From: Liolophura sinensis
Lineage: Eukaryota; Mollusca; Polyplacophora; Chitonida; Chitonidae
DNA length: 64,000 bases
Assembly: GCF_032854445.1 (NCBI RefSeq)
Contig: NC_088302.1
Span: 57,516,237-57,580,236, forward strand
Direction of reading: 5' to 3'
Shown: positions 31,501-62,204 of the stretch, piece by piece
Numbering within the stretch: position 1 is the first letter of the stretch
Layout of the letters: each line of letters starts with the position of its first letter
Notes under the pieces: model-generated
Told to the model about the DNA's origin: nothing
What the model saw: only the letters and a program-made list of their open reading frames with translations
The model's database searches: none
Translations under genes and position numbers: made by a program

Positions 31501-34500
31501 TCTAAACGTATACGCATACTAGCTATGTATTTTTTTTTTTTGGAAGTTTTACCAATCAGGAGATCTTACATCCCATTTATTTATGTCTTTTGTGAGAAGC
31601 GTACTTTGCTGTAAGCCTTTGTACTTGTAAAGCTTTTGTATTGTGAAACATGAAATCAATTGACGGGGATTTTATCTGTACATATGACAAACATATGACA
31701 ACACAAAAACCACAAATGGTTGTGTGTTTGGTTTGCTTCACTTCAGGGCTTACTTGTAGATGTGTAACTGGCCCCCTATGGCTCATTTGGCCTAGTGTCT
31801 GCTTTAGGGCGGTAGACCCAGGGTCAAACCTGGGTTGGGTCACACCTAAGAGCTTAAAAGTTGTAGCTTCCTCGTTTGGCGTTCAGCATTAAGGGGATAG
31901 TGCAACGAGTGGTTGACCCATATTAGTATAATGGCTCTTGTGGGGCGGCTTACTTGCCTTTGGTAAGGCGTCTCAGTGAAGCAGCACTAGATAAACGAGC
32001 AGTGGAAATCTGTCCTGCAACAAGGAGGCACATTAAATGCACTCTAAGGACTCCGTCGTCATATTACTGAAAAATTTGTTAAATGTGACGTTAAGCCCTA
32101 AGCACTCACTCACTCACATGTAGATGTAAAACTAATGGCTGTATTTTATTTATTTATTTGATTGGTGTTTTAAGCCCTACTGAAGAATATTTCATTTATC
32201 CGATGGCAGCCAGAATTAAGGTAGGAGGAAATCAGGCAGAGCACAGGGAAACTCAAAATCATCTGCAGGTTGTTGACAGACCTTTCCGGGTACGGCCAAA
32301 GAAGAACCATGTGATATTAGTAAATTAAGTGTGAGTGTATTGTGTTTCTTGGCTGGCTGGTCTGGTGTATTTAGCATGGCATTACAGTCAAGCAGCACTG
32401 TAAATACATGCATGCACTCCACACATGCATATGTGTTTGATGACATGCCAGTGGGCATGTCATCAAGCTGTGTACAGCTGTGTACAAACACAAGAAGTAG
32501 ATGTAGTGCCTTTTATACATGTGTATGGTGTGACCTGATCACTGTCCTTAGGATCCAACACAAGTTGTCACAAGACCTAATGTTGGTGTAAATACATGTG
32601 TCTCCTTTCACCAGATTTACAGGGATGGTTTCTTTGTGTTTCAGAGGCGATTGGCGAGCGCTGCCAAGAAAGCTATTTCAAAGATTCCCCAGAGAACGGT
32701 CCGCAGCGGTGACAAGGTAAGCCAGGTGTAAATATGCTTGTGTGGTGGCAAGGCAAGCCAGGTGTATGTGCGTGTGTGGTTGCAATGTAAGCCAGGTGTA
32801 AATGTGCTTGTGTTGTGTCAAGGTAAGCCAGGTATAAATGTGCTTGTGTGGTGACGAGGTAAGCTAGGAATAAGTGCGCTTGTGTGGTGGCAAGGTAAGC
32901 CAGAGGTAAATGTGCTTGTGTGGTGGCACATGCTCACTTAACCAGGTATACATGTATGTTAGTCTTCAGCCAGACTTTAATTCTCAGGTGTTAATAAACA
33001 TGTTTTTCAGGCGCATAACATCAGGTTATATAATAGCATTTGTGTTTGGTAATGTGGGGGTGTAATAATGGGAAGGGGCAATGGTAATAAACAACAGCCA
33101 AATACATATTAATATTCTAAATGATATTTTCCCCAGATAAAAATCAATATTCACACACTTGACTTAGTGTATATGCACGTTAAATGCTGAAATATGATCT
33201 GAGAATAACAGTATTACTCAGTAACATGTTATTGAGACCTCAGGCTGAGTCAAGAATGCATGGGCAGAGTCTTTAGATACAATATGAGACTGATTCCTAA
33301 GGAAAGGCAGCTCACTGTTATCTCACAATGATCAGCACATATCTATTAACCCAGATGTAGAATGAGTGTAATGGAGAGGGAATGTGATCTGTTAGCAGGC
33401 CTTGCCCTCAGTGGTGTTCCATGTATGCCTATCAAGAAGAAGCAGCATTAAGAGAGACTATGCCTACTCTGCTGCATCCACAGCCCTGTTAGTTCAACAG
33501 GGTTGCTCTGACTAGAGACCATGTGTAGGTGTCATACCAAGGTGTCGGTTCAGAAGATAATATAGTAATTGATTACTTTGTTTCACATGACACATTTACA
33601 TGTATAAAACAGGCTGTTTCGAAGCTAACATAGTAATTGATTACTTTGTTTCCCATGACACATCTACATGTATAAAGGAGGCTACTTTAAAGCTAACATA
33701 CATGTAGTAATTGATTACTTTGTTTCACATCACACATCTACATGTATAAAGGAGGCTACTTCAAAGCTAACACAGTAATTGATTACTTTGTTTCACATGA
33801 CACATTTACATGTATAAAACAGGCTGCTTCGAAGCTAACATAGTAATTGATTACTTTGTTTCCCATGACACATCTACATGTATAAAGGAGGCTACTTTAA
33901 AGCTAACATACATGTAGTAATTGATTACTTTGTTTCACATCACACATCTACATGTATAAAGGAGGCTACTTCAAAGCTAACACAGTAATTGATTACTTTG
34001 TTTCCCATGGCACATCTACATGTATAAAGGAGGCTACTTGAAAGCTAACACAGTAATTGATTACTTTGTTTCACATGGCACATCTACATGTATAAAGGGG
34101 GCTACTTCGAAGCTAACACAGTAATTGATTACTTTGTTTCCCATAGCACATCTACATGTATAAAGGAGGCTACTTGAAAGCTAACACAGTAATTGATTAC
34201 TTTGTTTCACATGGCACATCTACATGTATAAAGGGGGCTGCTTCGAAGCTAACACAGTAATTGATTACTTTGTTTCCCATGGCACATCTACATGTATAAA
34301 GGAGGCTACTTGAAAGCTAACATACATGTAGTAATTGATTACTTTGTTTCACATCACACATCTACATGTATGAAGGAGGCTACTTGAAAGCTAACACAGT
34401 AATTGATTACTTTGTTTCACATGGCACATCTACATGTATAAAGGGGGCTGCTTCGAAGCTAACACAGTAATTGATTACTTTGTTTCCCATGGCACATCTA

Positions 34501-37500
34501 CAGGTATAAAGGAGGCTACTTGAAAGCTAACATACATGTAGTAATTGATTACTTTGTTTCACATCACACATCTACATGTATGAAGGAGGCTACTTGAAAG
34601 CTAACATAGTAATTGATTACTTTGTTTCACATGGCACATCTACATGTATAAAGGGGGCTGCTTCGAAGCTAACACAGTAATTGATTACTTTGTTTCCCAT
34701 GGCACATCTACAGGTATAAAGGAGGCTACTTGAAAGCTAACATACATGTAGTAATTGATTACTTTGTTTCACATCACACATCTACATGTATGAAGGAGGC
34801 TACTTGAAAGCTAACACAGTAATTGATTACTTTGTTTCACATGGCACATTTACATGTATAAAACAGGTTGAAAGGTACTGTGGTTGAAAGCTATATTAAT
34901 CTGAATTTGTTGAATAAGATTTCCCCCCGTCTCTAAATTTACTGTTGTCTCTAATCCGACACTTTGCACCCATCCCCACCTAAATTGCTTTTGCTTCTGC
35001 AGCCATAAAGTCCTTCTGTCTTACTTTGCCAGACTCCCCCAACATTCACCCAACAATGTTGTTTTGTAACCTGATGCGCCTGGTAACAGAAACAGGTACA
35101 GGTGGTATACTGAACACACTAGACACTATTAACACAGCCTAAACCTACCCCTACTGCAGTTCATCCCAGAAGAACACACCCACTACAGTTCTTCCATCAG
35201 TTTTTGGCCAAGGTAAGCTATAATTGATGGTAGTTGACGTCTGTACATGTACATGCATATCAGTCAGGTGGTAGCGCCAGGCACTAGGGTTGGTTACATA
35301 CCTGTACTTACTTACATGTGTGTTATACCCTGTATATGTATATTAAGCAGGTGGTAAAGCTAGGCACTAAGATTGGTTAGGTACCTGTACTTATGTAGAT
35401 GTATGTTATGCCCTGTATGTGTACATCAGTCAGGTGGTGAAGCCAAGCACTAGGGTTGGTTATGTTATGCCCTGTACATGTATATCAGTCAGGTGGTGGA
35501 GCCAGGCACTAGGGTTGGTTAGGCACCTAGGGTTGGTTATGTTATGCCCTGTACATGTATATCAGTCAGGTGGTGGAGCCAGGCGCTAGGGTTGGTTAGG
35601 TACCTGTACTTACATACATGTGTGTTATGCCCAGTACATGTATATCAGTCAGGTGATGAAACCAGGCACTAGTGTTGGTTAGGTATGTGTACTTATGTAC
35701 ATATTTGTTATGCCCTGTGCATGTATATCATTCAGGTGGTGGAGTCAGGCACTAGGGTTGGTTAGGTACGTGTAGTTATGTACATGTGTGTTATGCCCTG
35801 TACATGTATATCAGTCAGGTGGTGGAGCCAGGCACTAGGATTGGTTAGGTACCTGTACTTATCTACATTTATGTTATGCCCAGTACATGTATATCATTCA
35901 GGTGGTGGAGCCAGGCACTAGGGTTGGTTAGGTACCTGTACTTATGTACATGTGTGTTATGCCCAGTATATGTATATCAGTCAGGTGGTGGAGCCAGGCA
36001 CTAGGGTTGGTTAGGTACCTGTACTTACATACATGTGTGTTATGCCCAGTATATGTATATCAGTCAGGTGGTGGAGCCAGGCACTAGGGTTGGTTAGGTA
36101 CGTGTACTTATGTACATGTGTGTTATGCCCTGTACATGTATATCAGTAAGGTGGTGAAGCCAGGCACTAGGGTAGGTTAGGTACCTGTACTTATGTACAT
36201 GTATGATATGTCCTGTAAAGGGATGTGCCATGCCCCTGACAGCTGTATCAGGCTTGAGGTGGGGTGGGGAGCAGTATAAGATTGTGGTGTTCTAGGTAGG
36301 CTCTAGATTTGAGTTTTTTAGTAGCATTCTCTCAACAGGACCATAGATCAATTACTTGTGGGATATACATGTAGCACAGTGGTTGCGTCTATAACTCTAG
36401 GCTGAGTTGTGAGGCCAATCCCTGCCTTAGGCAGAAAGTTCTAGATTCTGTTATACATGTACAGTTGTTATAGATACAAGTACATGTTGAGTGGCAGGAT
36501 GTAATTGGCATTGATCAGCAGTTATTTGGGAAATGTTAGATTGATTTATTACAACCAACATTTCACCTGAGCAGTATATGAGGGCAGTGTCGACCTTTGT
36601 GTCAGAACTGATAAATCTGCAGATATGAGTCATCCAAAGCAATTACCACTGGATCAGATTGATTGATTTTCCGTCACACATGGGTGGTGAGAGACTTTAG
36701 CAGGTAGTTAGCAGCCTGAGATCACCGGCTGTGTACGCCCATTAGTCACGATTTTCTGGGGCATACGTTGTAACTATTACCTATGTGTGCAAATATTGGC
36801 CTTGATCCCTTTGGTCTATGCTGATTTTCATCAACTCTATTGAGGAGTGTGTGTGTGGGTGGGGGGCTTGGTCCAGAAGGTCTGTTTGCTGTCTCCTACC
36901 TGATGAGTTCATCAAAGATTTTCTTCCTCAAGCATGTACATATACATTCTAGCTTTCTGGTGTTCATGTCTTTGTGATGTGAAACATGTACAAGTTGTCA
37001 GAAACCCTCGTTTCTGTTTCTGTATGGTGTCATTGATTTGCAAAGCCAGACTAAAACATAGATATAAGGCCCCTTAGTGGCTCAAATAGTTAGGGTGTGG
37101 TGAAATCCAATACCAATAAATTATGACACAAGAAGGAGATACATGTATCTGGCATGTCTGAATAGGTATGCCAATATCCTGCATGTCTGAGTAGGTGCTG
37201 GGATGTCTGGTGTGTGTGAATAGCTGTGGGGATATTTGATATGTCTCTATAGGTGTTGGGATGTCTGTATAGGTGTTGGGATGTCTGGTGTGTATGAATA
37301 GACATGGAGATACCCACCATGTGTGAATAGATGTGGGGATATCTGTTGTGTAGGAATAGACATTGAGATATCCAGCATGTATGAATAGATGTGGGGATAT
37401 CTGTTGTGTAGGAATAGACATGGAGATATCCAGCATGTATGAATAGATGTGGGGATATCTTGTGTAGGAATAGACATTGAGATACCCAGCATGTATGAAT

Positions 37501-40500
37501 AGGTATGGGGATATCTGTTGTGTAGGAATAGGCATTGAGATATCCAGGCTGTATGAATAGATGTGGGGTTATCTGGTGTGTAGGAATAGACATTGAGATA
37601 TCCAGCATGTATGAATAGATGTGGGGTTATCTGGTGTGTAGGAATAGACATTGAGATATCCAGCATGTATGAATAGATGTGGGGATATCTGGTGTGTAGG
37701 AATAGACATGAAGATACCCAGCATGTATGAATAGATGTGGGGTTATCTGGTGTGTAGGAATAGACCTGGAGATATCCAGCATGTATGAATAGATGTGGAG
37801 ATATCTGGTGTGTAGGAATAGACATTGAGATATCCAGCATGTTTGAATAGATGTGGGGATATCTGTTGTGTAGGAATAGACATTGAGATATCCAGCATGT
37901 ATGAATAGATGTGGGGATATCTGTTGTGTAGGAATAGACATTGAGATATCCAGCATGTATGAATAGATGTGGAGATATCTGGTGTGTAGGAATAGACATG
38001 AAGATACCCAGCATGTATGAATAGATGTGGGGATATCTGGTGTGTAGGAATAGACATTGAGATATCCAGCATGTTTGAATAGATGTGGGGATAGCTGTTG
38101 TGTAGGAATAGACATTGAGATATCCAGCATGTATGAATAGATGTAGGGATGTATAATCTGGTGTGTATAAATAGGAAGTGTTATCAGAGATTTTTGAAAT
38201 CAATCAGCACAGATTCAATCTATTTTTTTTTATAACAGCCCAAATAAATACCTTTCACAAAATGCCATCTGTGCTAGCATTCAAAATGGATGATAAAGTT
38301 TCTAAAATATGCAAAGTTGGTTGCATTATAACTTTTTCAAACTTAAGAATCATTTTAACATTGTACTAAATGTACATGTATGATTCTGATATTTACTAAA
38401 AGGCAATAGTTTGAGCTATTCTTGGTAAATACAGAAAAATTGAAATGATTAGCAAATACAGATTTTTTTGCCAAAAAATCTCTGATGTAGCCTCTTCAAA
38501 TATGGCACATGTAAATGTAGTGTGAGACACAAGGAAATAAAACATCTAAACAATGTTTTTTACTGTGTCACTCTACCAATGATGGAAACTGTATTCTACA
38601 TAAATACATTGTACATCCTATAGGTATGTCTTTCCTGTTTCAGGAATTGGAATCGGATTACGACCAGTGTGCTGTGTGTATCGAGAGTTACAAGAGCTCC
38701 GATGTTATCAGGATACTCCCGTGCAAGTGAGTCGTGTAATTGGACAGTTTATTGCTTTTCACAACCACTAATCTACACACAACAATTATTTGTTTCAGAA
38801 AAGCATTTTACTGTAGTACCACAGCCACAACTCACAACGTACATATCTCCTTTCTTGACTGTCATTACATCTGCAGTGAAGTAAGTCTTAAATTGCTGTC
38901 ATCTTTCATGAACAGATACAGCAAGTGGTTATACAGTAGCCTGCCATGAACACATACAGCAGACAGTTGTACAGTAACCTGCCGTGAACAGATACAGCAG
39001 GGGGTTGTACAGCAGCCTGCCATGAACATATACAGCAGGTGGTTGGTTGTACTGTAGCCTGCCATGAATAGACACAGCAGATGGTGGGACAGTGGCCTAC
39101 CATGAACAGATACAGCAGGTGGTTGTACAGTAGCCTGCCATGAACACATACAGCAGACAGTTGTACAGTAACCTGCCATGAACAGATACAGCAGGGGGTT
39201 GTACAGCAGCCTGCCATGAACATATACAGCAGGCGGTTGGTTGTACTGTAGCCTGTCATGAACAGACACAGGAGATGGTGGGACAGTGGCCTGCCATGAA
39301 CAGATACAGCAGGTGGTTGTACAGTAGCCTGCCATGAACAGACACAGCAGATGGTGGGACAGTAGCCTGCCATGAACAGATACAGCAGGGGCTGTACAGT
39401 AGCCTGCCATGAAGATATACAGCAAGTGGTTGGTTGTACAGTAGCCTTCCATGAACAGACACAGCAGATGGTGGGACAGTAGCCTACCATGAACAGATAC
39501 AGCAGCTGGTTGTACAGTAACCTGCCATGAACAGACACAGCAGATGGTGGGACAGTAGCCTGCCATGAACAGATACAGCAGGGGCTGTACAATAGCCTGC
39601 CATGAACATATACAGCAGGTGGTTGGTTGTACAGTAGCCTGCCATGAACAGACACAGCAGATGGTGGGACAGTAGCCTACCATGAACAGATACAGCAGGT
39701 GGTTGTACAGTAGCCTGCCATGAAAAGATACAACAGTTGGTTGTACAGTAGCCTGTCATGAACAGATACAGGAGACAGTTATACAGTAGCCTGCCATGAA
39801 CAGATACAGAAGACTGTTATACAGTAACCTGCCATGAACAGATACAGCAGGTGGTTGTAAAGTGGCCATGAACAGATACAACAGGTGGTTGTACAGTAGC
39901 CTGTCATGAACAGATACAGCAGGTGGTTGTACAGAAGCCTGCCATGAACAGATACAACAAATGGTGGGACAGTAGCCTGTCATGAACAGATACAGGAGAC
40001 AGTTATACAGTAGCCTGCCATGAACAGATACAGAAGACTGTTATACAGTAACCTGCCATGAACAGATACAGCAGGTGGTTGTAAAGTGGCCATGAACAGA
40101 TACAACAGGTGGTTATACAGTAGCCTGTCATGAGCAGATACAGAAGACGGTTATATAGTAACCTGCCATGAACAGATACAGGAGGTGCTTGTACAGTAAC
40201 CTGCCATGAACAGATACAGGAGGTGGTTGTACAGGAACCTGCCACGAACAGATACACCATGGGCTGTACAGGAGCCTGTCATGAACAGATACAACAGATG
40301 GTTGTACAGTAGCCTATCATGAACAGATTCAGCAGGGGTTGTACGGTAGTACAGGTGGTTCTTCAGTATCCTGTTAGTCGGACATGCTGCAGGTGGTTGA
40401 GAAATCTCATTTACATATCATGGCCTTGTAAATCATTAAAAGTGTAGTGTGTTAGACATACATGCAACAATACTCATTTTATCTGACAATCTGATGTCAT

Positions 40501-42548
40501 GACATAAATGCTTTCATGTCACCTAAGACATAGTTGATGTCTGTGAGAGTGACTTGTCTAATACATGTAGCATGCAAGTCCTGTCTGGATCAGATGTGTT
40601 ATGACTGTGTGGTTTTCTCATTGCAGACATGTTTACCGTAAGTCCTGTGTGGATCAGATGTGTAATGATTGTGTGGTTTTCTCATAGCAGACACGCATAC
40701 TGCAAGTCCTCTGTGGATCAGATGTGTAATGATTGTGTGGTTTTCTCATTGCAGACACGCGTACCGCAAGTCCTCTGTGGATCAGATGTGTAATGATTGT
40801 GTGGTTTTCTCATTGCAGACACGCGTACTGCAAGTCCTCTGTGGATCAGATGTGTAATGATTGTGTGGTTTTCTCATTGCTGACATACGTGGCACAAGTT
40901 CTGTGTGGATCAGATGTGTAATGATTGTGTGTTTTTTTCATTGCAGACACATGTACCACATGACCCGTGTTAGATGTGAAATGGTTGTGTGGTTTTCTCA
41001 TCGCAGGCACATGTACCACAAGTCCCATGTGGTTAGATGTGAAATGGTTGTTTGGTTTTCTCATTGTAGACACATGTACCACAAGTCCTGTGTTGGTTAG
41101 ATATGAAATTGTTGTGTGGTTTTCTCATTGCAGACACGTGTACCACAAGTCCTGTGTTGATCCCTGGCTGATGGACCAGAGGAGCTGCCCCATGTGTAAG
41201 ATGGACATCCTGAGAGCTTATGGCATGCAGATACAGGTGAGACACACTGGTGCTATTGGATTGGTCTTTTACCTCCCTCACTTGTGGTTAGGTTAGTCTT
41301 CCACACTGCACAGTTCGATTAATTGAGCGACGAAGTAGCCTTAGGTCTGGAAGTTTGTAAGGTGTCTACAGAGTTGTGACTGTGGCTGCTTGTTGAGTCT
41401 ACCTGTTACCCGTAACACAGTCATTTAAGATAAAATAGTCATTAGAACAATATAGATGACAAGTACCATTTTATCGATGTTCCATGCTTAAATCAGTGAT
41501 TTGGGTTTTTTACTTCACAAAGCATAATCTGTTTGCTCAATATTTAATGGATTAAATAAAACGAATATCATTGATATATGTGACCAGTCAGATGTCTGCT
41601 GACAGCGGATATTGTGAAATCCACCTTTGTATGTCTTTGCATGAGTGCCATGTTTATTTGTGTGGGGAGTGGGCTGTGGCCTAGTGGTTAAAGGTGCTTG
41701 CCTTCATGTCGCTAGGATAGGCAAGGTGTGGATTCAAACCTGGTCGTGGGTAGGAATTAATTGGATTGCCTCGTTATCGCTGCTGTGGAATCTTGGTGGC
41801 CTTAAGCATTTGACAATGCTAACGTTTTAGGGATAACTTGCCTTTACCAATATGGTGTACATCTTTGTTTGTCATGTGGGAAGGTTCATCAGTAACTTGC
41901 CAAATGGTAGTTGTTTACCCAGAAGGCACTTTGGTTTCCTCCACCCATGAAATGGACAGACATGGTATAACCGGTAAATTCTTGAATATGGGATTTAGTA
42001 ACAATCAATCTGTCAATTCCACGAGGTCCCTGCAACTGTTACACATGTACATTGTACATTCAGATGAGTTTGTTAGATCAAAAATAAATGGGAACTGACA
42101 ACTACAGAAGGCAGATATATTCCCATTGTTTCAAACAATCAGACTGACTAACTAGTTTCCTGTGTTGTTTTGTCAGCTTCACGGCAGTCAGGACAGCATG
42201 GTGCCTGCTGACCCAGAGAGTGGTACTGCCTCAGGGGTCATGGATGAGGTGGAACCATCTTCTAGTCCGGACGAGATGGGTGCTGTCGGGGGGGTCAAGA
42301 TTGTCCACTTCACCCACCCCTCCATACAATACCACCCCCGCTCCCTCTGCACTGACAGTGGCTGCATCACGGAACCTTCCACATCAGCCACTGATAGTGC
42401 AGCTGCAAAACGCATGACCTGTGACGACGCTGGTCACCTTAGTGACTCGGAATGTAATGAGCTGCAATCCTTGATGACACCTGCACGTCGCTTCAGCAGC
42501 TGCAGCAAAGACAGCTGCTCCTCCTCGCATGACCACAGCCTTAGTTAG
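4044..42548 (+). CDS. RNF130/RNF150-like: PA-TM-RING E3 ubiquitin ligase, Goliath group (RNF130/RNF149/RNF150-like), six coding exons
   Basis: Joined exons: 4044-4551, 20833-21092, 32645-32716, 38644-38726, 41134-41236, 42177-42548. They total 1398 nt, 465 residues plus stop, with intron phases 1,0,0,2,0 all compatible. The order is N-terminal hydrophobic signal, lumenal protease-associated (PA) domain (about 50-190), one transmembrane helix (about 220-243), and a RING-H2 finger with all eight zinc ligands (C289, C292, C307, H309, H312, C315, C326, C329). A Ser-rich tail follows. Family members are membrane-anchored E3 ligases of the endosomal and secretory system: PA faces the lumen and binds client proteins, while RING recruits a ubiquitin-loaded E2 in the cytosol. 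The transmembrane and RING sequences are almost those of vertebrate RNF130/RNF150. Assignment to one vertebrate paralog is not possible, and a single ancestral co-ortholog is likely. Introns are unusually minisatellite-rich. Confidence 0.93.
5505..6304 (-). pseudogene. Unrecognised, apparently frameshifted coding-like stretch
   Basis: Three overlapping minus-strand frames (6304-6110, 6082-5792, 5948-5505) look partly coding: charged and hydrophilic, with segments such as [12 protein letters not shown] and [14 protein letters not shown]. The reading frame appears to switch near 5940. I do not recognise the family. Inside intron 1 and antisense to the ligase, it could be a decayed transposon or retrocopy fragment, or chance. 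Confidence 0.25.
6561..13845. repeat. 54-bp minisatellite, about 130 copies with higher-order structure
   Basis: The consensus unit carries GTGTACTGTATGACCATAGG, then AAGGGTTTGGATGACTAGGT, then CTCAGTGGCCATCT, 54 bp in total. Edge copies (6561-6900 and about 13680-13845) are of a diverged type (GGTTGGATGATCTGTTCTTGG), while the centre is more uniform. A block repeats at an offset of 1286 bp (for example 9001 with 10287, and 11701 with 12987), including the same shortened unit. Another offset is 1123 bp (11247 with 12370). Because 54 is divisible by three, long open frames exist on both strands. They are by-products of the period, not genes. Confidence 0.95.
13957..14247. repeat. 19-bp minisatellite (TGGAAACAGTGTAGTTTTG-like)
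   Basis: About fifteen copies of a 19-20 bp unit built on TGGAAACAGTGTA alternate with GGAAATAGTCTGGCTTATT variants, suggesting a higher-order period of roughly five units. Located in intron 1. Confidence 0.85.
16021..16770. repeat. 137-bp tandem repeat, about 5.5 copies
   Basis: GTAGATATCTGGTGAGGCAT recurs at 16154, 16291, 16434, 16571 and 16708 (a diverged copy at 16021), giving spacings of 133-143 bp. Copies are nearly identical and alternate between two variants (CACATGGGAACC and CACGTGGGTACC). Located in intron 1. Confidence 0.92.
17035..20075. repeat. 68/74-bp minisatellite, about 42 copies of two interleaved types
   Basis: The unit includes GACTGGATATATATGGTCAC and TTGTGTAACCATACCACACA. 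A 68-bp form carries ACCTTTCATGTATG; a 74-bp form carries ACCTCATATGTACATGTATG. The 68-bp form dominates the left part and the 74-bp form the right part, with interleaving between. The array ends about 760 bp before exon 2. Confidence 0.95.
20833..21092 (+). CDS. RNF130/RNF150-like: Ligase exon 2: end of PA region and transmembrane helix
   Basis: The acceptor TTCCTTCTAG precedes 20833; the first two bases complete a Val codon. Encodes residues 170-256. The segment [20 protein letters not shown] is the Goliath-group transmembrane helix, followed by the basic [13 protein letters not shown] stop-transfer stretch. The donor is CTCA|GTAAGT at 21093, phase 0. This exon is the strongest evidence for family membership after the RING. 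Confidence 0.95.
24200..25185. repeat. 46-bp minisatellite, about 21 copies
   Basis: The unit contains TATGTAGTCCTGTATGTAAC, TACAAGAATCTCTGTACC and GGTAGGTC; starts at 24245 and 24291 show the 46-bp period. Variants alternate between ACTACAAG and ACAACAAG, and between GTAGTCC and TTAGGCC toward the right end. Confidence 0.92.
26565..27845. repeat. 82-bp minisatellite, about 15 copies
   Basis: The unit contains CAGTCTGTGAAGCCTGGTGT, ACTGTCCCC, GACAGCAGGAGCTGGAGTAA and CCTGATCGCCTCACA; copies start at 26654 and 26736. Some units are shortened and lack the GGAGCTGGAG part (near 27270 and 27575). Located in intron 2. Confidence 0.92.
28395..28975. repeat. 59-bp minisatellite, about 10 diverging copies
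   Basis: The unit has TATAGTGACTATGTTAATGA, AACATGTTTAAATTG and AAGTGTCCTCAGG. Copies become steadily more diverged to the right. Located in intron 2. Confidence 0.88.
29268..29600. repeat. 30-bp minisatellite
   Basis: About eleven copies of a 30-bp unit with CCCTGTACACTCAGTACAGT followed by GAAATCCCAG. The first seven are nearly identical and the rest are degenerate. Open frames here come from the period being divisible by three. Confidence 0.92.
29600..29895. repeat. 42-46 bp repeat adjoining the 30-bp array
   Basis: About seven imperfect copies built on CCAGTCAGGTGTGGTACAC and TTAGTCCAGCTANTGG. It directly follows the 30-bp array and shares the ACACTTAGTACAG word, so it may derive from the same seed. 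Confidence 0.8.
31770..32118 (+). mobile_element. tRNA-derived SINE with ACTC tail
   Basis: An A-box-like TGGCTCATTTGG (31779-31790) and a B-box-like GGTCAAACCTGG (from 31822) form a tRNA-type head. The tail is CACTCACTCACTCAC. TGTAGATGTGTAACT (31755-31769) before the head and TGTAGATGTAAAACT (32119-32133) after the tail look like a 15-bp target duplication with two mismatches. The type resembles SINEs I associate with mollusc genomes. Located in intron 2. Confidence 0.8.
32144..32304 (-). mobile_element. SINE 3'-end fragment, reverse orientation
   Basis: Begins with TTTATTTATTTATTTGATTG and GGTGTTTTAAGCC, then a GATGGCAGCCAGAATTAAGG core and a GGTACGGCC-like stretch. This is the reverse complement of the 3' part of the SINE type at 41664-42010. 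The tRNA head is absent. Confidence 0.7.
32645..32716 (+). CDS. RNF130/RNF150-like: Ligase exon 3: juxtamembrane linker
   Basis: The acceptor TTTCAG precedes 32645. Encodes residues 257-280, [12 protein letters not shown] then [12 protein letters not shown]. This corresponds to the conserved basic [15 protein letters not shown] stretch of the Goliath group between the transmembrane helix and the RING. Length is 72 nt, phase 0 at both ends. The donor GACAAG|GTAAGCC at 32717 is the first of a row of near-copies (see the next repeat). Confidence 0.93.
32704..32930 (+). repeat. 36-bp tandem repeat carrying the exon 3 donor
   Basis: The authentic donor (GT at 32717) and its flank GGTGACAAGGTAAGCCAGG recur at 32753 (GC instead of GT), 32787, 32823, 32859 and 32895, spaced 34-36 bp. 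Each copy keeps about nine exon-derived bases before the splice site. In the normal frame the first intronic codons read V-S-Q-V-stop, so use of a downstream copy would truncate the protein before the RING. Confidence 0.88.
33545..34870. repeat. 68/74-bp minisatellite, about 19 copies, with higher-order blocks
   Basis: The unit contains GTAATTGATTACTTTGTTTC, ACATCTACATGTATAAAGG and CTACTTGAAAGCTAACA. Longer units carry an extra CATACATGTA. A block of three units repeats nearly exactly around 34390-34800. Located in intron 3. Confidence 0.92.
35225..36220. repeat. 83-bp minisatellite, about 12 copies
   Basis: The unit contains ATATCAGTCAGGTGGTGGAG, CCAGGCACTAGGGTTGGTTA and TGTTATGCCCTGTACATGT; a few copies are shortened (35465-35580). 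Located in intron 3. Confidence 0.9.
36221..37139. other. Unique intronic sequence, no gene seen
   Basis: Part of intron 3, between two arrays. I see no exon, no mobile-element hallmark and no repeat here. Confidence 0.5.
37140..38175. repeat. 58-bp minisatellite, about 17 copies
   Basis: The unit contains TGTGTAGGAATAGACATTGA, GATATCCAGCATGTATGAAT and AGATGTGGGGATATCTG. The left edge is degenerate. It ends about 470 bp before exon 4. Long minus-strand frames are period artefacts. Confidence 0.93.
38644..38726 (+). CDS. RNF130/RNF150-like: Ligase exon 4: first half of the RING-H2 finger
   Basis: The acceptor is CCTGTTTCAG. Encodes residues 281-307 plus two bases: [19 protein letters not shown], then DVIRILPCK. 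It supplies zinc ligands C289, C292 and C307. The donor is GCAA|GTGAGT at 38727, phase 2. Confidence 0.95.
38799..38880 (+). other. Possible alternative cassette exon in intron 4
   Basis: An acceptor-like TTTGTTTCAG ends at 38798 and a strong donor-like GTGAA|GTAAGT begins at 38881. The 82-nt interval is open in the frame inherited from exon 4, giving [19 protein letters not shown] and so on. Inclusion would enter exon 5 out of frame and hit an early stop, removing the second half of the RING. I cannot tell whether it is used. Confidence 0.25.
38912..40370. repeat. 38-42 bp minisatellite, about 36 copies
   Basis: The unit contains CATGAACAGATACAGCAGGT, GGTTGTACAG and TAGCCTGC; longer units carry GGTTGGTTGTAC. 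Blocks recur (for example 38945-39100 with 39150-39300). Located in intron 4; the long minus-strand frames across it are artefacts. Confidence 0.93.
40565..41160 (+). repeat. 64-bp tandem repeat carrying the exon 5 acceptor and exon 5 start
   Basis: Nine copies of TGTGTGGTTTTCTCATTGCAG plus about 35 bases that match the start of exon 5 (in shortened form, GTGGTTTTCTCATTGCAG). The AG ends lie at 40626, 40690, 40754, 40818, 40882 (mutated to TG), 40946, 41006, 41069 and the authentic 41133, spaced 64 bp with one 60 and one 63. Copies encode H-x-Y-R/C-K-S-C/S-V-D-Q-type text resembling the HVYHKSCVD zinc-ligand segment. A partial copy without an acceptor starts near 40565. The last copy is the functional exon boundary. 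Confidence 0.92.
41134..41236 (+). CDS. RNF130/RNF150-like: Ligase exon 5: second half of the RING-H2 finger
   Basis: Encodes the end of residue 308 and residues 309-342: [18 protein letters not shown], then [16 protein letters not shown]. It supplies H309, H312, C315, C326 and C329. The DPWL-x(4)-SCPMCK pattern is typical of Goliath-group RING-H2 domains. The donor is ACAG|GTGAGA at 41237, phase 0. I chose the acceptor at 41133, not an upstream copy, because only it restores the RING frame and the second His ligand. Confidence 0.94.
41664..42010 (+). mobile_element. tRNA-derived SINE, nearly full length but degraded
   Basis: The A box TGGCCTAGTGG (41677-41687) and B box GGATTCAAACC (41730-41740) form the head. 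A GGCACTTTGGTTTCCTCCAC core follows, then AATTCTTGAATATGG and a CAATCAATC-type end. Its 3' part is the family of the fragments at 32144, 46369, 53903 and 60822. It lies in intron 5, about 165 bp before exon 6. It is not a functional tRNA, since the anticodon arm and acceptor stem do not pair. Confidence 0.75.
42177..42548 (+). CDS. RNF130/RNF150-like: Ligase exon 6: cytosolic tail and stop
   Basis: The acceptor TTGTTTTGTCAG precedes 42177. Encodes residues 343-465, a Ser/Pro/Asp-rich, probably disordered tail with several Cys near the end ([17 protein letters not shown]), then TAG at 42546-42548. The tail has little family conservation, so this exon rests on phase, acceptor quality and an uninterrupted frame. 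Codon composition is GC-richer than the surroundings, as expected for coding sequence. Confidence 0.85.
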   Translation, partial: LHGSQDSMVPADPESGTASGVMDEVEPSSSPDEMGAVGGVKIVHFTHPSIQYHPRSLCTDSGCITEPSTSATDSAAAKRMTCDDAGHLSDSECNELQSLMTPARRFSSCSKDSCSSSHDHSLS

Positions 42549-51178: not shown

Positions 51179-52606
51179 TATAAGCGTCATGTTCGACATT
51201 CGTATACCATTCGTAGTCAGTAAAGGTTGTTCCAAGTCGATAATCGCAAGATCCATTTCCAAAACAACGTTTAACACTACCTCCCAAAGACAAAGGTATG
51301 TAAGAAATTATACAAATAAGAAATAAAGCCGGTAACACACAAGAGAGAAGCGGTCATCGGTTTTCAATGATGCAGGGCAGACGGTTGATATTCCAGGCAT
51401 GAATTCCATATCAAAGTTCAAATTCGTAGACCATGAAGGAGTTCCAAGTCAAGTAACAATAAAACTAGGTATCTCAGTCGCGCTTTGATTGCAACTGTTC
51501 ATAAAGGCATCATGCAGATGTAATGGGCATGGCTGCCTTTACAGCCCCTAGCCCCAGGTTAAGCGGTATAAGATACAGTTCAAAAACGACGACCGTTACA
51601 GACCTTAACCGAACAGATTGTGATTAAGTAACGGACGATTACGTCTTTCCCGTTAATATGTAAGGATCTTATACTACAGGAGACGCCATCTATGATGTCA
51701 CACATGACATGCTGGTCTGTATAAGAGCTATCTACAAGACAGATGGTTACAGTCGGCAACCAGTGCCATCCGTGTTGTTGAATACCATGTACGCGATAGA
51801 TATGTAGTACATAAGGATAACAGCGCCGTCTTTGTGGTTGATCACGATGCAGATCGCCAGAGATTCTGAACGCTCTGTCCATACCTGTCAACGAGTGTTA
51901 TACTCATTGTAAAATTTGAGAAACTTAGAATGAAGGCGCTTGATGGAGTATCCTTGACAAACTAGTTTTTGAACTAACAACTTATGACGAAGATTAAAGT
52001 CATCACAATTTATGCAAGATCTGACAAATGCTACAAGGCGACATATGTATACGCCATATGCAGGATCCTTTGGTATATTGCTATCCAAAGAAGGATTATT
52101 TACAGTATCAAAATTGAAATTACCCCTTTTGTCGTCAAGGCGGCGTGAAAGGAGACCTTGTTCGTCTTTGTACAGATATAGACCCAAATAAGGTGTACCG
52201 TCAGGACTATCTGTTGTCTCCTTTAAATCCAATGAAGGCGGATAGATTTCCTTCACCGCTTCAGCAATATGGGGGTTATTTAACGCCAGTAGATCATCAA
52301 TATACCGCTTGATAAATGAAAAGGATCGAATTTTAAAGATATATTATAAAGACGATATTCTTTCAATAAGATCTTTGTGAGGAATTGTAGTACAGAGAGT
52401 AGAGAAATCCCATGTGGATACATCTTTGTACGGTATACGCATATGAGCATTCTTCTGTAAGACGTTTGGAGTTGTTAAGAATCCACATGCAGTTGACACC
52501 CGAATTTTTTGTTATGGCACAATAATACTTGTTCCAAAATGACTACTTCTTGTAACGCTCTCGTAAGTAGAGTTGACCAGAGTTTGGTGGTACAACAGTA
52601 CAGCTG
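51179..52606 (-). mobile_element. Retroelement-derived insertion within a minisatellite
   Basis: The 82-bp array stops near 51178 and resumes near 52607. The roughly 1.4 kb between is unrelated and holds the RT fragment. The simplest reading is an insertion (or capture) that split an older array. No target duplication or poly-A tail was found, so the ends are approximate. Confidence 0.6.
51890..52570 (-). pseudogene. Broken reverse-transcriptase fragment of a retroelement
   Basis: Read on the minus strand, the fragment shows in order: an SGVNCMWILNNSK-like stretch (about 52520-52450); a TWDFSTLCTTIPHKDLIE stretch followed by a stop (about 52410-52350); the catalytic RYIDDLLALNN motif (YIDD at 52304-52293); then an open 122-codon part with PYLGLYLYK, DKRGNFNFD, SNIPKDPAYGVYICRLV and FLKFYNEY. 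This is the palm-to-thumb part of an animal retroelement RT. The reading frame changes at least twice and a stop interrupts it, so it is dead. The lineage is uncertain to me (Penelope-like is one possibility). No endonuclease or long terminal repeat is seen. Confidence 0.78.
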
Positions 52607-54789: not shown

Positions 54790-55668
54790 ACACAAAGTCA
54801 TCTCTATCCTCATTCAGAACTGGGTGACAAGTTTACAGCACTTTACTAGCAGGATAATGACATGCAGACACAAAGTCATCTCTATCCTCATTCAGAACTG
54901 GGTGACAAGTTTACAGTACTTTACTAGGAGGATAATGACATGCTGACACAAAGTCATCTCTATGCTCGTTTAGGTCAGGGTGATATGTTTACAGCACTTT
55001 ACTAGGAGGATAATGACATGCTGACACAAAGTCATCTCTATCCTCATTTAGGTCTGGGTGATATGTGTACAGCACTTATCTGGGAGGATAATTAAGTAAA
55101 CATAAACACTGTACCTGCAGACACAAAGTCATCTCTATGCTCATTCAGATCTCAGTGACAAGTTTACAGCACTTTACTAGCAGGATAATGACATGCAGAC
55201 ACAAAGTCATCTCTATCCTCATTTAGGTCTGGGTGATATGTGTACAGCACTTATCTGGGAGGATAATGACATGCAGACACAAAGTCATCTCCATGCTCAT
55301 TTAGGTCAGGGTGATATGTTTACAGCACTTATCTGGGAGGATAATGACATGCAGACACAAAGTCATCTCTATCCTCATTCAGAACTGGGTGACAAGTTTA
55401 CAGCACTTTACTAGCAGGATAATGACATGCTGACACAAAGTCATCTCTATCCTCATTTAGGTCTGGGTGATATGTGTACAGCACTTATCTGGGAGGATAA
55501 TTAAGTAAACATAAACACTGTACCTGCAGACACAAAGTCATCTCTATCTTCATTCAGAACTGGGTGACAAGTTACAGCACTTTACTAGGAGGATAATGAC
55601 ATGCTGACATAAAGTCATCTCTATCCTCATTCAGATCTCAGTAACAAGTTTACAGCACTTATCTGGGA
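54790..55668. repeat. 78-bp minisatellite, about 11 copies
   Basis: The unit contains GACACAAAGTCATCTCTATC, CTCATTCAGAACTGGGTGAC and GTTTACAGCACTTTACTAG. Some units have TTTAGGTCTGGGTGATATG instead, and some an extra TAAGTAAACATAAACACTG. It ends abruptly at the transposase fragment. Confidence 0.92.
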
Positions 55669-56935
55669 GGATATGCTGGTGTTGCCCAGGCTGAACTTTC
55701 GTGATCACTTCCTGAACGGGGCTCCACCCGATGCAATTGTAGGGGCAACTAGATCTGGTTGGATGAATGAGGAGCTCTATTCGGAGTATATGAAACACTT
55801 CATACATCACATTCGTTGTACGAAAGAGTGCCCAGTTTTGTTGATTCTTGACAATGTGGAGTCGCACATTTCTTTAGAGGCTATTGATTAAGAGAGAGAA
55901 AATGGTGCAGTGATGGTAACTTTACCTCCTCACACATCTCACCATCTCCAACCCCTAGACCGCTGTGTTTATGGGCCCTTCAAAACTGCATACAACCTTG
56001 CAATAGACAGCAACCATTTATGATTTACCATCCACCATAACAGAGGCCCATGTTAATGCAAAGACATAGAAACTATCTATCTGGTTCTGCTCAACAGGGA
56101 TATATCCCTTTAACGGACACTTTTCAGAGAAACAGATTTTGCTTCTTCCTCACTGACGGATCACGTCCAGATCTGATGGCTAGACACGAAAGTGAGCCGT
56201 TGACACAAAACCGTGCAGTGATAAATGAAGATGGGGCTGCAGAAGAGCACAATAATGCCCCCTTGTCCTGATGAAAATATTTCTGCAGCAGCACAAATAC
56301 CATCTACATCAACTTCTGGTCTGGACAGTCCTTTAGCATCACCTGCAGCCTTTCATTCTGGCGCCCTAGCTAGATGTGTATCACCATCGGACATTCTGCC
56401 ATTCCTGAAAGCACAAGCCACAAAATCTAAAGGGGGACAAAACAAAGGATCGACAAAAATCTTGACTAATACACCTGTGCAAAACTGAAACAAGGCAAAA
56501 TCTCTCTCCAAACCGTCTTGCAAAACAACTAAAAAGCCTTTTTGCAAAAAATGAGGAGCACTCAGGTTGTAGAGGACGATACTAGAGGAAGAAATGCATC
56601 TCATAGACACAGACCATGACCTTGAGTTGGACAATGAAACAAATGAAGGTGACTTTGTAGTTGTCAAGTTGAGAGGGGGTAGAGGAAGGAGTTGCATTTC
56701 ATTCCAAGAGTAGATGTCTCTTCTGATAAACTAGGGGGTGTGCTCCTCAAGTTTCAAGTCTACTTCATACAGCTGATGACAAGCCAACATTTTTGATAGA
56801 CCAGGAAGACAAAGCATCATTTCCTAGAGAGGATGTTGTTAAAAAGCTACCCACAAGTATCATACAATCTGGCTCTTTGTGCAAGTCAAACCAACAGGTA
56901 TTTCCCTGCATATTTAACCAAGAGGGAACTTAAGA
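55668..56935 (+). pseudogene. Broken Tigger/Jerky-type (pogo-like DDE) transposase
   Basis: In frame 1 the text reads LPRLNFRDHFLNGAPPDA, then SGWMNEELYSEYMKHFI, then PVLLILDNVESHISLEAI, where the LDN motif carries the second catalytic Asp. An in-frame stop follows, and then LPPHTSHHLQPLDRCVYGPF in the same frame. A later frame has SPSDILPFLKAQATK and ILTNTPVQN, typical of the C-terminal part of Jerky/Tigger proteins, then EGDFVVVKL and FPREDVVKKLP. The DNA-binding domain and the first catalytic Asp are missing at the 5' side, where the element abuts the 78-bp array. Several stops and frameshifts show it is inactive. AATAAA at 57045 could be its old polyadenylation signal. Confidence 0.82.
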
Positions 56936-57065
56936 GTTAAACTATAGACATAGGATGGAACCTTATAAATGAGCCAGCAAACCATTTTTTGAATCTCTTG
57001 TAACAATTTTATGCTCAACCTTTGCAAGAAGCTGTTTTTTCTGTAATAAAATATTAAATGTTTTT

Positions 57066-57915
57066 GTTTGTTATGCATTGGTTCATCTTACCCCACTGAC
57101 TTGGTCATCTTACCCCACTGAGTGGATCATCTTACCCCACTGACTGGGTCATCTTACCCCACTGACTTGGTCATCTTACCCCACTGAGTGGATCATCTTA
57201 CCCCACAGAGTGGATCATCTTACCCAACTGACTTGGTCATCTTACCCCACTGAGTGGATCATCTTATCCCACTGACTGGACCATCTTACCCCACTGACTG
57301 GGTCATCCTACCCCACTGACTTGGTCATCTTACCCCACTGAGTGGATCATCTTACCCCACTGACTGGGTCATCTTACCCCACTGAGTGGATCATCTTACC
57401 CCACTGACTGGATCATCTTACCCCACTGACTGGGTCATCTTACCCCACTGAGTGGATCATCTTACCCCACTGACTGGGTCATCTTACCCCACTGAGTGGA
57501 TCATCTTACCCCACTGACTTGGTCATCTTATCCCACTGAGTGGATGATCTTACCCCACTGACTGGGTCATCTTATCCCACTGAGTGGATCATCTTACCCC
57601 ACTGACTGGGTCATCTTACCCCACTGAGTGGGTCATCTTACCTCACTGACTGGGTCATCTTACCCCACTGAGTGGATCATCTTACCCCACTGAGTGGATC
57701 ATCTTACCCCACTGACTGGGTCATCTTACCCCACTGAGTGGATCATCTTACCCCACTGACTGGGTCATCTTATCCCACTGAGTGGATCATCTTACCCCAC
57801 TGACTTGGTCATCTTATCCCACTGAGTGGATCACCTTACCCCACTGACTGGGTCATCTTACCCCACTGACTGGATCATCTTAACCCACTGACTGGATCAT
57901 CTACCCCACTTAAGG
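57066..57915. repeat. 22-bp minisatellite, about 38 copies
   Basis: The unit is TCATCTTACCCCACTGACTG plus GG, with variants ACTTGG, AGTGGA and ACTGGG that alternate in no fixed order. Near-perfect conservation and uninterrupted spacing suggest recent expansion. Confidence 0.95.
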
Positions 57916-58084
57916 GGTAAGATGACACAGGTGAAACACGTTTTATAATCTTCAAACACATAATGTCCTTTCACCTAGTCAAGCTTGACAATGTATTCAT
58001 CTATAGATGAATAATGTTTAAAAGAGACAGTAGTTTTCAAACATGTATTTAATACACAGGTTTTGAAATGTAAAAAGTGTTTCA

Positions 58085-58490
58085 TCTTGTATGTCATACA
58101 CATTCACTAGACAGGTGTGTCATACACATCCACTAGACAGGTGTGTCACACATCTACCTTACAGGTATGTCATACACATCCACCAGACAGGTGTGTCATA
58201 TACGTGTACCATACAGGTATGTCATACACATCCACCAGACAGGTGTGTCATATACGTGTACCATACAGGTGTGTCATACACATCCACTAGACAGGTGTGT
58301 CATACACATCCACCAGACAGGTGTGTCACACACATCCATCAGACAGGTGTGTCATACACATCTACCTTACATGCATGTTATACATATCTTCCAGACAGGT
58401 GTGTCATACATATCCACCAGACAGGTGTGTCATACACATCCACCAGACAGGTGTGTCATACACATCCACCAGACAGGTCTGTAATCCTTA
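58085..58490. repeat. 26-bp minisatellite, about 15 copies
   Basis: The unit is TCATACACATCCACCAGACA followed by GGTGTG, with variants TACGTGTACCATACAGG and ATCTACCTTACAGG. Since 26 x 3 = 78, all frames stay open for long stretches; none is a gene. Confidence 0.94.
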
Positions 58491-59061
58491 TCCATTTCTG
58501 CAATCTGGTGAGTGTCAGTTTAGTGACACGGCTTCACCTTACCTAAGTGCACTAGACCAAAACGTCTCTGTATACATGTACATAGCACATTGAAATAATG
58601 AGGTACCAGAAAACAGTACCTGTAACATTCCATTCCAGAAGTATGAAGAATTCATACAAAGATAAGTGAGAGAGACTCAAAGTAGTCGAGTAGCCTACAG
58701 TTTTATGTACACGTAAAACAACTCATACAAATCAACACAAACAAAACCTTAGAAAAGTACACATTTTCAGCATAAAAACTATATTGTCTTTGTAAGACTA
58801 GTTTATATTTTGCTGAAATAGAAATGACTTTAAAGATTTCCAGAACAATGATTAATGTATGAGAATGTCCATGAAATTTCCATGACAAATGATAAATTTG
58901 TAAAAATAATAACTGGAACAAGGGAAACAAATCTACAGACTGGATAAAGACTCCTTCTCCAGGTTGCTGAGGATTTCCCCCACTGTATCACAGAATGAAG
59001 ATTGAACCTGACCAATCAGGTAGGACTGGTATATAACCTGGTCAGCCAATCAAAGAATCTG
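58491..59061 (-). other. Probable 3' UTR/flank of the minus-strand gene
   Basis: This lies directly downstream of the stop codon at 59064-59062 on the minus strand. It is AT-rich. I did not find a canonical AATAAA in minus-strand orientation that I would commit to, and I see no other gene. Confidence 0.4.
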
Positions 59062-59242
59062 TTAGAAGCTATCCAAGTCGAGGCGGGATGGCTGAAGGTG
59101 TTGGTGGTTGTGATCAGCTGACAGAGAGGTGACAGGGGAGGCCATAGATGATTGGGACTTAAGTCGAAGCACAGGACTAGAGGCTGTATCTTGGGTGTCA
59201 ATCACAGCTGTTCTGGAGCGGGCCCGTGCAGGAGTTGGCCAA
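59062..59242 (-). CDS. Terminal coding exon of a minus-strand gene (Ser-rich C-terminus)
   Basis: The acceptor TTTTTACAG lies just upstream (AG at 59244-59243). The first base completes a codon begun in the exon at 62073 (AG|T, Ser). Then 59 residues follow: WPTPARARSRTAVIDTQ, then a Ser/Leu-rich stretch ending PSRLDLDSF and TAA. This looks like a disordered tail. Phase agreement with the upstream exon, a clean polypyrimidine acceptor and coding-like composition support it. The function is unknown. Confidence 0.62.
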
Positions 59243-60821
59243 CTGTAAAAATGAAAACAAAACAGATGTTCAACTGATGTAAGAAAAGAAATAGCCTGTA
59301 CCCTTTCCAAAGTAAAGTCACACACATTATGCGATTAAGATAAAATAGGAAATGGCAAATACAGAGCTTACCCAATACAATTCTGGTGTGGAGGTAAGAC
59401 AGGGTTTGTACAGGTATATGAAAATGAAATTCAAGGAGTTTTCCAGGAGTTTTTTGTCATTTTCAAGACCAGTTTAAACATACCATGGTGCAAATTATAG
59501 ACTGCATTTTAAGTCTGAATTACAGATGCTTTAATTTGCATGCACGTATATTGAATAGTATGCTTGGTTTTGCAAGAAATATCTGCCCCTCACCTATGTA
59601 ATGTGACACTTTCTTTGACCCAGCCTTGGCTCAGTCAAATAATGAACACCATACAGTATATCATTATGCAGGGCTTCCACTGGGTCAGTATTTTTTTTTA
59701 AGCCAGTCGCTTTATCCACTCATCAGATTTTGTAGTAAATACTATTTTTCTTTAGCCATACTTCCTTAGCGACCATGACCCTTGTACGTCTCCTGTAATC
59801 CGATTTTATCTGTCTTGGTGTAGCTGCTAGAATCAGTTTGGTCTCTTCCAGCTATATCTGGAGTTTATCAAACGTTACATTTAGAAGAATTGCCCTCAAA
59901 ATAATGGACCAATGCTTGGCAGCATATTTTTGTTTTTTGAAAAAAAAAATCAACCCTTTTTTCAACCAATCTGTAGGATCCTGGTACAATGTACTTTCTT
60001 CTATCAGAAAAATTTGTTACGAAATTAATTTGAAAATTCAGTTTATATAAATGCAACATTATGATCAGTACATTGGAGTAACACAGTCTGATAGGAGAAA
60101 AACAGACGGCGTACACATTTAGTTAACGGCACATATTCTGAAACATTTAATTTACTTTGGATCCCAAAAAAATAATTTATTAAGTGGAAAAGGTCAAATT
60201 TTTCATGGGAGGTAACTTCATTTACAGGTGTAACTTTACCTTGATTTATTTCCCTTGACAATATTTTTTTTTTCCACAATTGGCGATGAAAGGCATCCTC
60301 CAAAATGCCATGATTCTCATTCGTTATTTAACAAAAATGATTTCAAGCGTTATTTAATGTAGGTCCACTTGCAACAATGCTGAACCCCCTTTGTAGATTT
60401 CTGTCAAGTAATCATCATACAACTGTGTTGTTGTTTTGCCGAGATGAGGCCGTTTGAAATGAAAGTAAGTGGATTATTTTCATAAGAAAAATTGCGAAAA
60501 TCTGCAAAATTTGTTGCCAAAAACATTCGCATATTTTCAAATTTTATCGTTACTTCAAAAAAATTGTTATAAATTTGCGACAATGGTGAGTGCCAGCAGA
60601 AGCCCTGATTATGGGAGAATGATCAGTGAGTTCCCGATATACAGACTCAGCGGTCAGCAGACAATATTTCAGTTCAGGACAAACTAAGATTTTCAAGGAG
60701 TTTCCAGGAGTATTTGTCTCTTTTAAGGACTTTCAAGTACCTGAAAATGAAATTGTATTTTTCAAGGAGTTTCAAGGACTGTGCGCATCCTGTAAGATGA
60801 TTGGATTGGCCCAGGGTTTCT

Positions 60822-60945
60822 GGGTTTCCATGGGTTTCCCCCGGGCTCTGCCCGCTTCCCTCCCACCATAATGCTGGCTGCCGTTGTAAAAGTAAAATAT
60901 TTCTCTGCATGGCGTAAAACACCAAACAACTAAATAAATAAAAAA
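60822..60945 (+). mobile_element. SINE 3'-end fragment with poly-AAATAAAT tail
   Basis: CCCGCTTCCCTCCCACCATA, TGGCTGCCGTTGTAAAAGTA and GGCGTAAAACACCAAACAAC, then TAAATAAATAAAAAA. It is the same family as 41664-42010, in plus orientation and without the head. Confidence 0.72.
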
Positions 60946-61299
60946 ATGTATTGGCCTGATTATATAAAACCCTATATGAGAGCAGACAGGCATATATATT
61001 AACAAACACACCCCTTCACAAAAGTCTGCATAGATTAGGATTTTTTACAGAAATAAACCTGCCAGAATGGTCATTACTTTCCTCTACATGTATGCAAATG
61101 ATTTATTTATTTAGTAGTAGTATAATGGAGTGAGAGCTAACAGAGCTAACTCAAACTGAGATTCATCTTATTAAGTTACCTGTTGTAAAAATCAATCAAT
61201 CAATCAATCAATCAATCCACTACCATGCGCTTGCTCTATTTGTGGATAACTCATTATCAATGCCTACATGTATGTGAGGTCGAAAGTCTGATGGGGTGT

Positions 61300-61515
61300 C
61301 ATATTAGGTGTTCCAGCACAGCACTCTAATCAGGCACCACAATGGTGGCCCTATTTGTGGAAAAGACATTATCAATGCCTACATACATCAGTGCGATAGG
61401 CCAAGCCCAGGTCAGCCCATGGGGTGTCATGTCTGGTTTTCCCAGCATAGCACTCCAATCAGGCAGCACAACGTTGGTCCTATTTGTGGAAAAGTCACTA
61501 TCAATGCTTACAAAA
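61300..61515. repeat. Twofold direct repeat, about 136 bp apart
   Basis: CAGCACAGCACTCTAATCAG and CCCTATTTGTGGAAAAGACA recur at about 61445 and 61479 as CAGCATAGCACTCCAATCAG and TCCTATTTGTGGAAAAGTCA. A diverged third piece lies at about 61230-61300. Confidence 0.8.
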
Positions 61516-62072
61516 GTCAAAATGTATTTGTACACACCTCTTCAGATGAAATGGTTAGACATTGTTGGTCTGACACTCTCATGCACAAACTCTCCCTGAG
61601 GGTAACATTATGACAGGTAACACATATAACACCCTGAGAGCTCTATCTACAAGCAGTTTAATCTGCTCCTCATCAAGTATTAACTCCTGCTTTGTGTTGT
61701 CAGGAAACCATACATCTCAATTCCACATGGCCCAAGGCTGACAGAATCTCCACCCCCCCCCCCCCCCCACCCCTACAACCCCAACCACAGGAATCACTGA
61801 GGCAACCAATGATATATCAAGTTCTCTGTCAGTCTACATGTACAATCCCAAACTGCTAGTGTGATTATTACTTACTGAAAATTCATATGACAACCAGAAA
61901 CTTCTGTTCTCAAATAACAATCCCATATCCATACAATAATTGAAAGTATACAGAGAGTAACTGTGACCAACATGTACCCATGTAGATACCGGACAATCCG
62001 ACTCTTGGGCTAATGAAAGTTACAAGGTTTTGAAAATGGACAAAGATGAACTATGAATGTTTTATGGATTAC

Positions 62073-62204
62073 CTTTGCCTTGCGTCCTCATCAAATGACA
62101 TCACCAGTTTCTTCCACCTGTGGATGTAAGGGAATTGTTGAGGGTCTACAGGCACATCTTCAAGCGCACGCAAAACATCCAAATCTAGCTTAGTGGCCTC
62201 CGTT
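62073..62204 (-). CDS. Internal coding exon of a minus-strand gene
   Basis: The acceptor GTTGTTGTAG precedes 62204 and the donor CAAAG|GTAATC follows 62073. The 132-nt exon has phase 2 at both ends and encodes TEATKLDLDVLRALEDV, then PVDPQQFPYIHRWKKLVMSF, then DEDARQ. The ALxxxPxDxxxFPYxxRWKKLVxSF pattern faintly resembles the end of glutathione-S-transferase-like C-terminal domains in EF1B and related proteins (FPHxxRWYxHIxSY). That is a hint only. The rest of the gene lies beyond the right edge or in unrecognised exons. The acceptor sits at the end of a tandem array of its own copies. Confidence 0.6.

Follow-up and report, generated by a model that had tools for sequence, protein, structure and literature searches.

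We analyzed a window, meaning here the whole stretch of 64,000 nucleotides (nt) examined, from the genome of the chiton Liolophura sinensis (G000:C8:57516237-57580236). It carries exons of two genes on opposite strands and three minisatellite arrays that lie across exon-intron junctions, the third of these junctions being a probable one. The assembly searched had 609,464,459 bases in 632 contigs and is reported to have been built from HiFi reads (PMC11068029). The species was named Liolophura japonica in the genome paper and was later corrected to Liolophura sinensis (PMC12441733).

The plus-strand exons, from 4014-4551 to 42177-42548, are predicted to form a PA-TM-RING E3 ligase gene. From its exon layout and sequence we take the gene to be goliath/RNF130-like. 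Exon 1 (4014..4551) encodes the PA domain (PF02225, 39.2 bits), with a frame open from 4014 and a first ATG at 4044; its donor at 4551 was placed by eye at a weak signal (gtattg), in a stretch with no donor above 3 bits. Exon 2 (20833..21092) appears to encode the transmembrane segment, as read from the sequence. Exon 3 (32645..32716) has its donor within a 36-bp array. The first half of the RING domain would be encoded by exon 4 (38644..38726; assigned by sequence), whose junctions both lie outside arrays, and the second half is encoded by exon 5 (41134..41236; zf-RING_2, 28.2 bits against a cut-off of 27.3). The last exon (42177..42548) runs through the stop codon and has its acceptor outside arrays.

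On the minus strand, a probable penultimate exon (62073..62204) has a weak donor (-0.6 bits) and an open frame whose phase matches that of the following exon. The probable last exon (59062..59242, minus strand) continues in phase through the stop codon. For this gene we found no Pfam family and no name in its own genome; matches in PDB reached only E values of 0.4-0.8.

Tandem Repeats Finder (TRF) placed all three junctions within arrays, in agreement with the preliminary description of this DNA, which had named one donor and two acceptors in two genes on opposite strands. The first array (32708..32928, plus strand) has 6.2 copies of a 36-bp unit that includes the last 9 nt of the exon and the donor. 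It contains the donor bond between 32716 and 32717 (tgacaag/GTAAGCC, the slash marking the junction), and its first copy is joined to the exon body. The second (40575..41162, plus strand) has 9.3 copies of a 64-bp unit that includes the end of the intron with its AG and the first 29 nt of the exon; it contains the acceptor bond between 41133 and 41134 (cattgcag/ACACGTG), and here the last copy is joined to the exon body. The third (62172..62529, minus strand) has 8.1 copies of a 44-bp unit that likewise includes the end of the intron with AG, followed by the first 33 nt of the exon. It contains the junction before 62204 (gttgtag/AACGGAG), a probable acceptor judging from the sequence, with the terminal copy joined to the exon body. 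Many further copies kept the splice dinucleotide in the aligned position: GT in 4 of 5 in the 36-bp array, and AG in 7 of 8 and 6 of 7 in the 64-bp and 44-bp arrays.

When the genome was searched with each of the three arrays (by a search that skips very common words), each matched at one place, itself, so that within the reach of this search none of them is a dispersed satellite or a transposon-borne repeat.

One alternative is that minisatellites form everywhere in this genome and that some catch junctions by pure chance, at a uniform rate. Arrays are indeed very common. In the window, 27 merged arrays cover 26,139 of the 64,000 bases (40.8%), and they make up 54.5% of the introns of the plus-strand gene. 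Three of the 13 placed window junctions, one donor and two acceptors, were within arrays; a few of the 13 positions are off by one base, which does not affect array membership. This number is not high against present-day array coverage (P(<=3) = 0.15). If every array is reduced to a single unit, coverage falls to 5.0%, and against this value the number is high (P(>=3) = 0.024), a comparison made post hoc. A genome sample is a better test than the window of whether junctions and arrays overlap more often than by chance.

As a substitute for a whole-genome count, exons were sampled by profile searches with Cpn60_TCP1, Myosin_head, Kinesin, AAA_6 and Pkinase, which gave at least 491 matches. We chose 235 of these by eye before their sequence was seen (no in-frame stop, not at profile ends, not long), and all but one met the written rule, leaving 234 exon matches in 170 stretches (L001-L170) as the sample used. 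To call splice sites we used the match ends, the openness of the frame and a scoring model for splice sites that had been trained on this same sample. Junctions scoring above 3 were taken as confident (334 of 468), and arrays were defined as TRF arrays with a period of at least 10 and a score of at least 50. All counts, null expectations and ratios below, other than pooled totals, rest on these 234 exons.

Tandem arrays covered 9.4% of the near-exon sample. Seventeen of the 334 confident junctions (about 5%) were within arrays, in 15 of 105 gene clusters, so that the recurrence seen in the window extends beyond it. They comprised 11 of 150 donors and 6 of 184 acceptors, a weak difference (Fisher P = 0.13). 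For example, L032, in a TCP1 gene, repeats gctgcagacaag/gtgagtggggg, and L041, in a Myosin gene, repeats ctgtgtttgtag/gtttgagcg. When the copies were read one after another, the splice dinucleotide recurred in register in one or more further copies at 16 of the 17 crossings. Apparent crossings could in principle stem from errors in the assembly or in the exon calls, the junctions having been placed by profile match ends and splice motifs in genomic DNA. We consider this very improbable in view of the further in-register copies, the membership of the exons in conserved domains and the HiFi origin of the assembly.

Minisatellites are not a class of their own in the published repeat table of the chiton genome (Table 6; PMC11068029), where 'other (simple repeat, microsatellite, RNA)' accounts for 0.08%. 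Minisatellites may sit in the 14% listed there as 'unclassified'.

We think it likely that the arrays of the window and the sample are 'mirages', that is, minisatellites that began as a short tandem duplication across an exon-intron junction and are silent as long as the exon-attached site is used. A short duplication would arise by chance across the junction, and the messenger RNA (mRNA) would be unaffected while the spliceosome uses the exon-attached copy, which is the first one at a donor and the last one at an acceptor. With all additional copies inside the intron, the mRNA would stay unchanged, and such duplications could therefore accumulate. The array would then expand like any intronic minisatellite, presumably through slippage or unequal exchange, carrying decoy splice sites along. 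The exon-attached site is presumably the one in use. In all three window arrays the site joined to the exon body is in the terminal copy, as had been described. This is close to a logical necessity, for the repeats would otherwise be coding; it follows from use of the exon-attached copy and the intronic position of the others and is no separate finding.

The preliminary description also offered, as one of two possibilities, that splice boundaries are preferred seeds of such arrays. To compare junctions with other points, we counted the bonds that fall into an array's terminal unit. This count comprised 15 of the 17 crossings, L129 and L144 being excluded. As a control free of any seeding model, we placed pseudo-junctions in the same introns, at set distances from the exon, and scored them with an identical search window. 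Terminal-unit crossings were found at 15 of 334 junctions compared with 20 of 1521 pseudo-junctions; with ten distances, the comparison was 15/334 with 41/3102, a ratio of 3.4 (95% confidence interval (CI) 1.7-6.5; 102 gene clusters). For donors only, the numbers were 9/150 and 11/1397, a ratio of 7.6 (CI 2.9-23). The CIs of both ratios lie above 1, which argues against pure chance.

Uniform seeding, calculated from the unit lengths and from how densely exon-proximal array edges occur, points the same way: 3.9 to 5.8 crossings of 334 were expected, depending on the settings, against 17 observed, and over all 468 junctions 6.1 were expected against 18. When a crossing was required to have at least 6 nt on either side, the ratios under six settings were 2.6 to 5.4, with lower bootstrap bounds of 1.4 to 2.7. 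Matching for GC content cut the terminal-unit ratio from 3.4 to 2.4 (CI 1.2-5.2), and three other GC-matched settings gave 2.2 to 2.8. GC content accounts for part of the overall excess, a conclusion that we hold with moderate confidence.

Several observations weigh against mirages formed in excess at junctions. The comparison with shuffled positions, which had been proposed as the check, went the other way. Random points drawn from the flanks of the same introns (30-560 nt) predicted 36 crossings, and 17 were seen, a depletion instead of an excess. The depletion arises because each intronic base of an n-copy array counts n times and an authentic junction only once, and we rejected shuffling as the deciding test of seeding for this repeated counting of copies. 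As a null it is wrong for repeats that have expanded, and it can turn an excess into an apparent depletion or the reverse. The terminal-unit comparison is, however, post hoc, since it was devised after the shuffle depletion, and it rests on 15 to 17 cases. Plain array coverage was 5.1% at junctions and 10-14% inside introns, which agrees with chance; the lower coverage at junctions could also reflect selection against crossing arrays. Under the strictest setting, at least 10 nt on each side together with GC matching, the lower bound of the CI was 0.97. Acceptors only, at 6/184 against 30/1705, gave a ratio of 1.85 with a CI (0.55-5.0) that spans 1, and acceptor-side pseudo-junctions at 300 nt (6/144) were no lower than the real acceptors. 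Among the crossings themselves, L129 is doubtful, a single further copy is present in L050, and in L144 just 5 exonic nt are in common. Use of the exon-attached site in this species is presumed from the genome sequence. Finally, 18 overlooked exons that fitted the rule were fetched late, with flanks of 480 nt. None of their 22 confident junctions (of 36) was in an array, where about 1 was expected, these being too few for a replicate. Pooling the first and late exons gave 17 of 356 confident junctions and 19 of all 504 junctions in arrays.

A further Myosin exon donor (L176 577), called weakly at 2.9 bits, lies in a 31-bp array of 6.2 copies. It is a possible further mirage and was left uncounted.

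With the CI above 1 for donors and spanning 1 for acceptors, the excess is shown for donors alone, and the proposal of preferred seeding is partly supported, to that extent. Donors were caught by arrays more often than equivalent intronic points, and our confidence in this is moderate. Acceptors alone are compatible with chance. Pure chance as an account of the whole, with its support in the abundance of arrays, the low coverage at junctions and the effect of GC matching, is in our judgment possible but doubtful.

The idea that the splice motif itself attracts arrays found no support. A donor-like motif above 3 bits was present in 5 of 62 intron-only arrays and in 120 of 1872 random segments. 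An acceptor-like motif as seed was likewise unsupported (4 of 62 and 152 of 1872).

Arrays might also originate evenly and differ in survival. If whole-array deletions that take the coding edge are not tolerated, crossing arrays would persist longer than others. Exon-proximal array edges were also denser in the first 60 nt of introns (11 over about 18.8 kb) than farther in (38 over 138.6 kb), which fits a broad exon-edge effect of this kind. Crossing arrays, however, look no older and are no more diverged than intronic ones (TRF match 89.5% and 89.0%, P = 0.63). Deletions between copies would still be possible, and a bias towards donors is not predicted. We keep this explanation as a tentative one, with less than even weight. 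For the excess as a whole, we infer easier duplication at GC-richer exon edges, better survival of exon-anchored arrays, or both, rather than selection for redundancy.

Selection for redundancy would mean that arrays are kept because their spare splice sites protect or regulate splicing. We examined the decoys of the 3 window arrays and of 16 crossings from the sample; L129 was omitted as doubtful, and L170 has no aligned copy. GT or AG was kept in 122 of 132 aligned copies. Base by base, the dinucleotides were kept slightly better (253/264, 95.8%) than neighbouring positions, whether other intronic (3699/4060) or exon-derived (3295/3530) ones (91.1-93.3%), and intact decoys averaged 5.8 bits, both of which fit redundancy. 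The difference in retention is weak evidence, since the copies within an array are not independent. The decoys are also weaker than the authentic sites, which averaged 6.9 bits (P = 0.04), and those of L003 and L074 are much weaker. A decoy can replace the authentic site only by adding extra sequence, and this sequence seems unsuited to coding: read-through of one unit reached a stop in 14 of 18 cases, and the unit length was a multiple of 3 in 8 of 19 (6 of 19 with the shortest TRF period for L053, L126 and the L165 acceptor). Selected redundancy is thus improbable as the reason why the arrays are kept.

The same unit lengths and stops led us to reject in-frame alternative exon repeats as a rule. 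The dinucleotides are mostly intact, stops are common and the frame is ignored; therefore, the decoys are not visibly purged and are generally unfit as in-frame exons. The exceptions, with a unit that is divisible by 3 and open, were L003 (63 bp, weak decoys), L124 (66 bp) and L126 (54 bp). In L124 789 and L126 606 the average decoy is as strong as the authentic site, and isoforms that carry inserted repeats in frame are most to be looked for in these two.

A wider reading of the mirages is possible rather than probable. Exon edges, donors above all, might be hot spots of tandem duplication in this lineage, and thousands of conserved junctions, extrapolating from about 5%, might be fronted by banks of mostly intact decoys. 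In that case the choice of splice site would depend on which copy is attached to the exon body, and the banks might form a standing reservoir for new introns and isoforms. If about 1 in 20 conserved junctions does have decoys alongside, this would be a natural experiment on how the spliceosome chooses among near-equal sites.

Other repeats and fragments were seen in the window. Intron 1 of the plus-strand gene contains a 54-bp array of about 134 copies (6579-13845), in which open frames reach 385 codons on the minus strand and 148 on the plus strand; these frames are likely a by-product of a unit length divisible by 3. In the last intron of the same gene, 41831-42010 is a dispersed repeat with 39 further matches of 71-86% identity among the 40 candidates scored, out of 426. 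Ahead of it, the sequence from about 41676 resembles a short interspersed nuclear element (SINE) derived from transfer RNA (tRNA). A DDE_1 transposase fragment (24.3 bits) lies at 55613-55888. The open frame at 51891-52343, to which the Pfam scan gave no match, resembles what we take to be a Penelope-type reverse transcriptase.

Contrary to what the preliminary description had supposed, the phenomenon is not new. Lancelet mirages have been published for Adh3, the globins BflGb6 and BflGb9, and troponin C, with similar repeats in PGBD5 (PMC3087553, PMC3902484). Like the chiton arrays, they are minisatellite-like, span a 5′ or 3′ boundary, and carry GT or AG in many copies, not in all. Their units measure 10-72 bp in Adh3, about 150-160 bp in the globins, and 60 and 108 bp in PGBD5, so that the unit lengths overlap with ours, and splicing is reported to be regular despite them (PMC3087553, PMC3902484). 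In the chiton, likewise, the unit spans the boundary (in the three window arrays, the third probable, and in 16 of 17 sampled crossings), both 5′ and 3′ boundaries are involved, and most copies hold GT or AG. The chiton case differs in coming from a mollusc and not a cephalochordate, and from a survey and not single genes; the frequency and the pseudo-junction excess were measured, and the arrays are known from the sequence of one assembly.

Two other systems are related. Human internal tandem repeats in segmental duplications also show minisatellite expansion at exon-intron boundaries, with a unit of about 30 bp (PMC2812944). Half of them are in coding exons, and those at boundaries can form novel introns, whereas the chiton copies are presumably intronic and silent. 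CeRep25B of C. elegans is likewise tied to splicing regions; it is one named minisatellite over-represented near alternative splicing regions (PMC4039745), whereas each chiton window array is private to one junction. Among the matches listed in the open-licence literature, there were no mollusc mirages and no genome-wide frequency of mirages. A text search of a paper on tandem repeats across the Daphnia genome found no mention of splice sites. The chiton arrays are real and recurrent and, within the open-licence literature searched, are a known kind in a new phylum; what is new is the frequency of crossings and the excess at donors. Lancelet mirages have been proposed as a source of new introns (PMC3087553), and the chiton junctions, if that frequency holds, would also offer a natural experiment on boundary duplications that feed intron gain.

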